The position numbers and the translations under genes are program-made. Positions 7,952-8,757 of a DNA stretch of 64,000 bases are shown piece after piece. Source of the stretch: an uncultured Albidovulum sp. (GTDB lineage: Bacteria > Pseudomonadota > Alphaproteobacteria > Rhodobacterales > Rhodobacteraceae); the NCBI GenBank assembly GCA_913064775.1, contig CAJYAD010000007.1, forward strand, positions 62,001 through 126,000. Reading direction: 5' to 3'. Each line of letters opens with the position of its first letter. Position 1 is the first letter of the stretch. The notes below the pieces were generated by a model. That model was not told where the DNA came from, did not search any database, and saw only the letters and a list, made by a program, of their open reading frames with translations.

Positions 7952-7957
7952 TTGACA
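7952..7957 (+). promoter_or_regulatory. Candidate -35 element (TTGACA) for the small RNA/micro-ORF unit; -10 not resolved
   Basis: Perfect TTGACA hexamer in a locally AT-rich stretch, about 45 nt upstream of the extended SD. Confidence 0.4.
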
Positions 7958-8016
7958 AACACAAAATATGTGGCACGCTTCCATATAGGCGCAATGCATT
8001 GAAAGGAGGTGGTCCA

Positions 8017-8073
8017 GTGTCGAGAGTGATGTTGGAGAGAGGTGTCGGGACAGTCAGGAGGAATGTGGCCTGA
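8017..8073 (+). CDS. 18-aa micro-ORF MSRVMLERGVGTVRRNVA with extended Shine-Dalgarno
   Basis: GTG at 8017 preceded by GAAAGGAGGTGGTCCA; in-frame TGA 8071-8073; terminator follows at 8140. Confidence 0.5.
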   Translation: MSRVMLERGVGTVRRNVA

Positions 8074-8139
8074 GGGCAGCCCCTGAGGTACTGACCAACT
8101 GATTGGGCATCCTAACTGGCCCATCTCCAGGAACTCGGA

Positions 8140-8171
8140 GGGCCGTGCGCGTCGCACGGCCCTTTTCCTTT
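8140..8171 (+). terminator. Intrinsic terminator of the small RNA/micro-ORF unit
   Basis: Perfect 10-bp stem GGGCCGTGCG-CGT-CGCACGGCCC (8140-8162) followed by TTTTCCTTTTC. Confidence 0.85.
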
Positions 8172-8207
8172 TCAAACCCCCGCTCCCAGGCGCCTGCGCA
8201 CCCCAGG

Positions 8208-8334: not shown

Positions 8335-8757
8335 ATGTTGCGCATCACTGACGATATCAACCTGCAGGACTGGGAAATCACCGAAAGCTTCTCGCGCTCT
8401 TCGGGGCCGGGAGGGCAGAACGTCAACAAGGTGGAAACCGCGGTGGAGTTGCGCTTTGAGGCCGAGCGCTCGCCCAGCCTGCCGCCGGCGGTGAAGGCGC
8501 GGCTGAAGCGGCTGGCGGGGCGGCGCTGGACGGCGGACGGGGCGATCGTGATCCGCGCCGAAGAGACCCGCCATCAGGCCCGCAACCGCGAGATCGCCCG
8601 CGAACGTCTGGCCGAGCTGATCCGAAAGGCGCTGACCGCGCCCAAGCGGCGGATTCCGACGCGGCCGACGCTGGGCAGCCAGCGCCGCCGCCTGAAGGCC
8701 AAGACCGAGCGCGGTCAGGTCAAGTCGCTGCGCGGCCGCCCCGGGGACGAAGAGTAA
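8335..8757 (+). CDS. arfB: Alternative ribosome-rescue factor / peptidyl-tRNA hydrolase ArfB
   Basis: SRSSGPGGQNVNKVETAVELRF (GGQ domain) and basic C-terminal tail; ATG 8335. Confidence 0.93.
   Translation: MLRITDDINLQDWEITESFSRSSGPGGQNVNKVETAVELRFEAERSPSLPPAVKARLKRLAGRRWTADGAIVIRAEETRHQARNREIARERLAELIRKALTAPKRRIPTRPTLGSQRRRLKAKTERGQVKSLRGRPGDEE

Follow-up and report, generated by a model that had tools for sequence, protein, structure and literature searches.

A diverged CC2171-like small RNA gene of alphaproteobacteria whose Shine-Dalgarno sequence matches the free 16S rRNA tail and whose micro-ORF is probably translated

CC2171 is a small RNA of Caulobacter, reportedly described by Landt et al. 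in 2008, and its lineage is represented in Rfam by family RF01867. The Rfam name gives no function. The only mention of the family in Rfam 15 concerns a single covarying pair that was added (PMC11701678). MH_s33 of Mesorhizobium huakuii belongs to RF01867, and RNA-seq products were obtained for every predicted non-riboswitch sRNA except MH_s6 (PMC5596092). Two of the ncRNAs previously predicted by Landt et al. in Caulobacter are translated, though they are not named in the main text of that study (PMC4117421). Our literature search, conducted mostly outside subscription journals, found no functional study of CC2171, of its peptide words or of 16S decoy sRNAs. The open reading frame and the match to 16S rRNA described below for this lineage come from the present comparison.

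At the Rfam gathering threshold, no RF01867 match was found in the window (the whole 64,000-nucleotide stretch of DNA analysed). Positions 7993-8163 match the family with an E value of 2.9e-5 and 32.7 bits, under the gathering score of 75. The likeness lies in the common 5' element AAUCGAAAGGAGGUGAUCCAGUGUC, in the position of this motif near the RNA 5' end, and in the type of terminal hairpin. The conserved RF01867 5' element GAAAGGAGGUGRUCCAGUGUC and the 3' intrinsic terminator are both present at the locus. The body helices differ. The RF01867 closing helix UCAUUGUC/GACAAUGG is absent, and UCGAG/CUCGG stands at the equivalent position; covariation of this helix was not demonstrated in the swap test described below. 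From these features, we regard the locus as related to the RF01867 lineage and deeply diverged from it. A second weak RF01867 match was seen in the same genome (contig C9, positions 125487-125557), and two other genomes each carry two copies of the motif.

All features of the locus lie on the + strand. By direct reading, a TTGACA at 7952-7957 is a probable -35 element. No consensus -10 was found at the locus, so the promoter is a putative one; among 134 Rhodobacteraceae copies, about 87 have a TTGAC 49-51 nt upstream of AAGGAGG. The segment 7952-7976 (TTGACAAACACAAAATATGTGGCA) is kept in near relatives, and an imperfect palindrome that spans the promoter spacer is a possible operator. Positions 8001-8017 read GAAAGGAGGTGGTCCAG and the GTG start codon occupies 8017-8019; thus, the 17-nt motif and the start codon overlap by one base, the G at 8017. 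The GTG opens a micro-ORF of 18 codons at 8017-8073 (coding 8017-8070, stop TGA 8071-8073). A Rho-independent terminator at 8137-8173 ends the unit, as had been proposed, with a 13-pair stem (8137-8165) followed by a T-rich tail.

Matches to RF01867 were found in 86 of 395 alphaproteobacterial genomes, and DNA homologues of the locus in 19 of 41 relatives. The 17-mer AAGGAGGTGRTCCARTG occurs in 142 of 199 Rhodobacteraceae genera, as a single copy in all but one, and a reversed-pattern control gave no matches in the same 199 genera. Of 136 alphaproteobacteria sampled, 79 had a looser motif by a manual count, versus 1 of 263 other Pseudomonadota; some 42% of the alphaproteobacterial sample is without the exact motif. 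Carriers include Bradyrhizobium, Methylobacterium, Bosea, Brevundimonas, Sphingomonas, Rhizobium and Paracoccus. We have high confidence that the locus is a real conserved gene. The Shine-Dalgarno (SD) sequence, ORF and terminator of the original prediction have counterparts in relatives, so the prediction withstood the conservation half of its own refuting condition. To that prediction the comparison adds the kinship with CC2171, the class-wide spread, the co-evolving helices, the fixed stop codon and a gammaproteobacterial version matched to its own 16S tail. In nine further records the same 19-mer precedes an ORF of 11-24 codons. These records, mostly MAGs, are labelled Acidobacteria, Phycisphaerales, Gemmatimonadota, Nitrospirae, Actinomycetota, Deltaproteobacteria or Nitrosomonadales; five of the nine have strong terminators, and one is a 4.8-Mb chromosome record. 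Five other records, three of Azospirillum type and two of Geminicoccaceae type, combine the extreme SD with ORFs of 56-59 codons, signal-peptide-like starts and a terminator.

In the original prediction, 8001-8017 was assumed to pair with the 3' end of alphaproteobacterial 16S rRNA. The assembly holds only positions 9-754 of the organism's own 16S gene, on a contig edge and lacking the 3' end. The 16S genes of two other alphaproteobacteria end in GGCTGGATCACCTCCTTTCTAAGG, which confirms, on the tails of relatives, 16 Watson-Crick pairs and one G-U pair. The 17-nt duplex has a computed energy of -31.8 kcal/mol compared to -5.7 kcal/mol for AGGAG. We take helix 45 of 16S rRNA to be 1506-1529 and the single-stranded tail to start at 1530 (E. 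coli numbering). With these limits, 14 nt of the motif coincide exactly with the complement of the single-stranded tail, and the variable remainder would lie opposite helix 45. Because the last three pairs (CAG, 8015-8017) would face the paired strand of helix 45 and vary between clades, the functional complement is probably the 14-nt hyper-extended SD at 8001-8014 (GAAAGGAGGTGGTC), for which the duplex energy is -24.1 kcal/mol.

Since many loci were collected by means of the motif itself, its conservation was judged on the members that a covariance model or BLAST had recovered. In these, GAAAGGAGGTGRTC is kept almost always, and the near-invariant 14 nt are GAAAGGAGGUGRUC. The R (A or G) lies opposite a U of 16S and is the sole position where both bases pair. 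The CCA before the start codon changes to CGA, CCG, TCG or CCT in other clades. Variation among the independently found members is nearly always confined to the 16S-wobble position or to positions beyond the free tail; seven members deviate. A chance match was ruled out by the conservation of the motif across genomes and by the uniqueness of the exact 13-mer AAGGAGGTGRTCC in the 4.38-Mb genome. A 16S fragment or antisense copy was also rejected, because the motif runs into a start codon and not into AGCC.

Gammaproteobacterial 16S rRNA ends in CCTCCTTA and not in CCTCCTTTC. A search with TAAGGAGGTGRTCNNRTG gave 3 matches in 399 genomes versus 1 for the control. Two of the three, from one gammaproteobacterial family, stand before 18-codon ORFs and have UCGAG, a CGGAAAG segment and a terminator in common with the Rhodobacteraceae RNA. 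The same two loci were recovered (2 of 90) when the first base was left free. A third genus, found by similarity, carries TTTAAGGAGGTGATC, again with 18 codons. All three relatives carry UAAGGAGGUGAUC, complementary to their own tail, and their 16S genes end in CCTCCTTA. The three loci were also noted to share TAAGGAGGTGATC, the 18-codon ORF and the terminator. This version is rare but tail-matched, and with only three cases its support for 16S pairing is suggestive.

The RNA folds better than all 200 of its shuffles (z = -3.5). Because the alignment shifts registers in helices P2 and P3, we used a register-free swap test instead of a column-wise count of covariation. In this test, the own 3' arm was compared with the 3' arms of diverged relatives as partner of each 5' arm. 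The scores were 0.86 for P2, 0.75 for P3 and 0.87 for the terminator, with controls at 0.44-0.50, and by this measure all three elements are co-evolving. The P2 5' arm (CAGTCAG, 8051-8057) lies within the ORF and pairs with the 3' arm at 8099-8105 (CTGATTG) in predicted folds. The P3 hairpin (8069-8088) has the stop codon in its 5' arm and a conserved GGCAGCCC-like loop. The second AGGAGG noted inside the ORF is present at 8056-8061. It belongs to the 5' arm of a co-evolving helix, and its role as a second SD was ruled out by its lack of conservation.

In the predicted fold of the free RNA, the anti-SD-like strand CCCATCTCC (8120-8128) hides the SD and codons 5-7 hide the start codon. An alternative fold is predicted once the SD is occupied; in folds with and without a blocked SD, UUGGAG of codons 6-7 (8032-8037) is the partner of the start-codon segment UCCAGUG or of CUCC at 8125-8128. 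Conservation of the SD, codons 6-7 and the CUCC strand is too strong for covariation to be assessed, and the swap test found no covariation of the SD with its mimic. The cost of opening the SD is higher than in shuffles in Rhodobacteraceae (11.5 vs. 7.2 kcal/mol) and Bradyrhizobium (10.6 vs. 7.4 kcal/mol), but it is not raised in Caulobacter-type (5.9 vs. 8.0 kcal/mol) and MSS-type (5.4 vs. 6.7 kcal/mol) relatives. Universal sequestration of the SD was therefore ruled out, and sequestration is put forward for particular clades. The same structure could serve a dual-function base-pairing sRNA. Its 3' half would then bind mRNAs in trans, through CCCATCTCC or the P2 3' arm for instance, and translation of the micro-ORF would do no more than control how the RNA folds or how stable it is. 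The autonomous sRNA-like unit with its terminator, the anti-SD-like strand and the need for a passing ribosome to open P2 and P3 all fit this explanation, and such sRNAs are known in alphaproteobacteria (PMC10117765). However, the 3' half is far less conserved across orders than the SD, and the CUCC may merely close the fold. We consider this explanation rather unlikely.

The micro-ORF claimed at this position was examined in 136 distinct Rhodobacteraceae copies, and it is exactly 18 codons long in 129 of them. Codon 19 is TGA in 61, TAG in 48, TAA in 20 and TGG in none, whereas 22.7 TGG codons are expected if the two variable columns are independent (naive P = 1.6e-11, kinship ignored). An earlier in-frame stop was found in one copy, and interruptions of the two alternative frames in 68 and 63. 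The start codon is always GTG or ATG in the set, but the collecting pattern demands one of the two. With its start, frame and stop kept in relatives, there is a good case that the micro-ORF is translated. The entropies at codon positions 1, 2 and 3 are 0.81, 0.83 and 0.89 bits; thus, codon-position entropy gave no sign of amino-acid selection, which RNA pairing constraints could mask. Elsewhere the ORF has 14 or 21-26 codons, and the peptide sequence also differs between clades. Since the codon positions are equally variable, selection looks to be on the passage of the ribosome rather than on the peptide. The TW..AS and L-E motifs were considered as peptide-level conservation and rejected on the same ground, as they fall in predicted pairing segments. 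A plain mRNA for a functional micropeptide would explain the conserved start, frame and stop, and the lengthened Azospirillum ORF (56-59 codons) with its signal-peptide-like start agrees with it. The equal variability of the codon positions and the change of peptide sequence and length by clade (14, 18 and 21-26 codons) make it unlikely.

The neighbouring gene arfB, identified as an ORF with GPGGQNVNK (8335-8757), encodes an alternative ribosome-rescue factor and lies outside the RNA unit. It follows the RNA in about 60 Rhodobacteraceae loci, with 14-194 nt between the T-run and the arfB ATG. No SD-like word precedes arfB in 53 of 59 cases and TA is concentrated at -12/-13; Rhodobacteraceae arfB appears to be leaderless with its own promoter. 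An apparently leaderless arfB thus adjoins a gene with an extreme SD. Outside Rhodobacteraceae the neighbours include prfC, rnr, dus, acs and glmM-like genes (named by eye from sequence), and two Hyphomonadaceae loci have arfB upstream on the opposite strand at 0.2 and 1 kb. The differing neighbours and the leaderless arfB argue that the RNA is a gene independent of arfB. Together with the conservation in relatives and the terminator of the RNA itself, they support the self-contained transcription unit of the original prediction and speak against its cis-acting ribosome-status sensor for arfB. A cis-acting leader or attenuator of arfB would account for the downstream position of this gene, as near as 14 nt to the terminator, and perhaps for its presence beside the Hyphomonadaceae-type loci. 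We regard it as very unlikely; cis attenuation was ruled out by the varied neighbours and the leaderless signature, no antiterminator partner is evident, and the terminator/antiterminator before a co-transcribed gene that defines attenuators was not found. Least probable of all is a guide or chaperone of 16S rRNA 3'-end maturation that is not mRNA-like, because, despite the full-length complement of the 16S tail, complementarity goes up to the mature 3' end or stops just short of it, with free variation of the nucleotide preceding the motif, and the start codon at SD spacing and the selected stop favour translation.

The reading we favour is that of a ribosome-capturing, translation-dependent regulatory RNA. 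More precisely, the locus would encode an autonomous, structured, translated sRNA, related to the CC2171 lineage and deeply diverged from it, that captures the 30S subunit through the entire 16S tail, and we put the probability of this at roughly 0.55. We infer that transcription begins about 20 nt before the SD and stops at the terminator, giving an RNA of about 190 nt. Its 5' element would pair with the whole single-stranded 16S 3' tail, a target suggested by conservation, and pairing of this extent would give a much tighter grip on the 30S than an ordinary SD. In Rhodobacteraceae, tail pairing would also pay for opening the fold predicted to hide the SD. The captured ribosome would then translate the short ORF, which is constant in length and nearly indifferent to peptide sequence, and terminate at a fixed point within P3, necessarily melting P2 and P3. 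The output would most likely be the ribosome-bound versus the free state of the RNA, which could sense free 30S subunits, act as a decoy for them, or gate pairing by the 3' half. The RNA may also have the decoy or sponge function or the leader-like function first proposed. Our confidence in 30S capture is moderate and in any specific output low. The complete 14-bp duplex would end 2 nt before the start codon and may hinder initiation, and SD sequestration is unsupported in the Caulobacter-type and MSS-type relatives. A broader proposal is more tentative: throughout the class, the RNA would sense free 30S subunits or buffer them, with a micro-ORF that only moves the ribosome and releases it at a set point, and with sporadic tail-matched analogues in gammaproteobacteria and, by record labels, in other phyla. 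We hold it possible, though doubtful.

The locus is a small stand-alone RNA gene with counterparts throughout the alphaproteobacteria. Its 16S-matched SD and the preservation of start, frame and stop, but not of the peptide, suggest that the RNA exists for ribosomes to bind and translate it. It offers a natural, conserved example of an mRNA complementary to the entire free 16S tail, with selection apparently acting on ribosome passage instead of on the peptide. An unexplained Rfam sRNA thereby becomes a testable question of how ribosome availability is sensed, and because many well-studied bacteria carry the RNA roughly once per genome, testing should be easy in model strains. Among known systems, rnTrpL/peTrpL of Sinorhizobium meliloti likewise comes from an alphaproteobacterium, is small, and combines a very short ORF with a terminator (PMC10117765). 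The leaderless rnTrpL attenuates trpE and encodes a functional peptide of 14 aa (PMC10117765), whereas the present RNA has an extreme SD, is an autonomous gene and gives no sign of peptide-level selection. The extended SD motifs of Staphylococcus aureus also pair with 16S rRNA past the canonical SD core, by about two extra pairs in ordinary mRNAs (PMC13009471); unlike these, the present RNA pairs with the whole free tail and is represented by about one gene per genome. By its supposed way of working, the RNA may also be compared with another structured RNA that occupies a core machine. That machine is RNA polymerase for 6S RNA, and for the present RNA it may be the 30S subunit.
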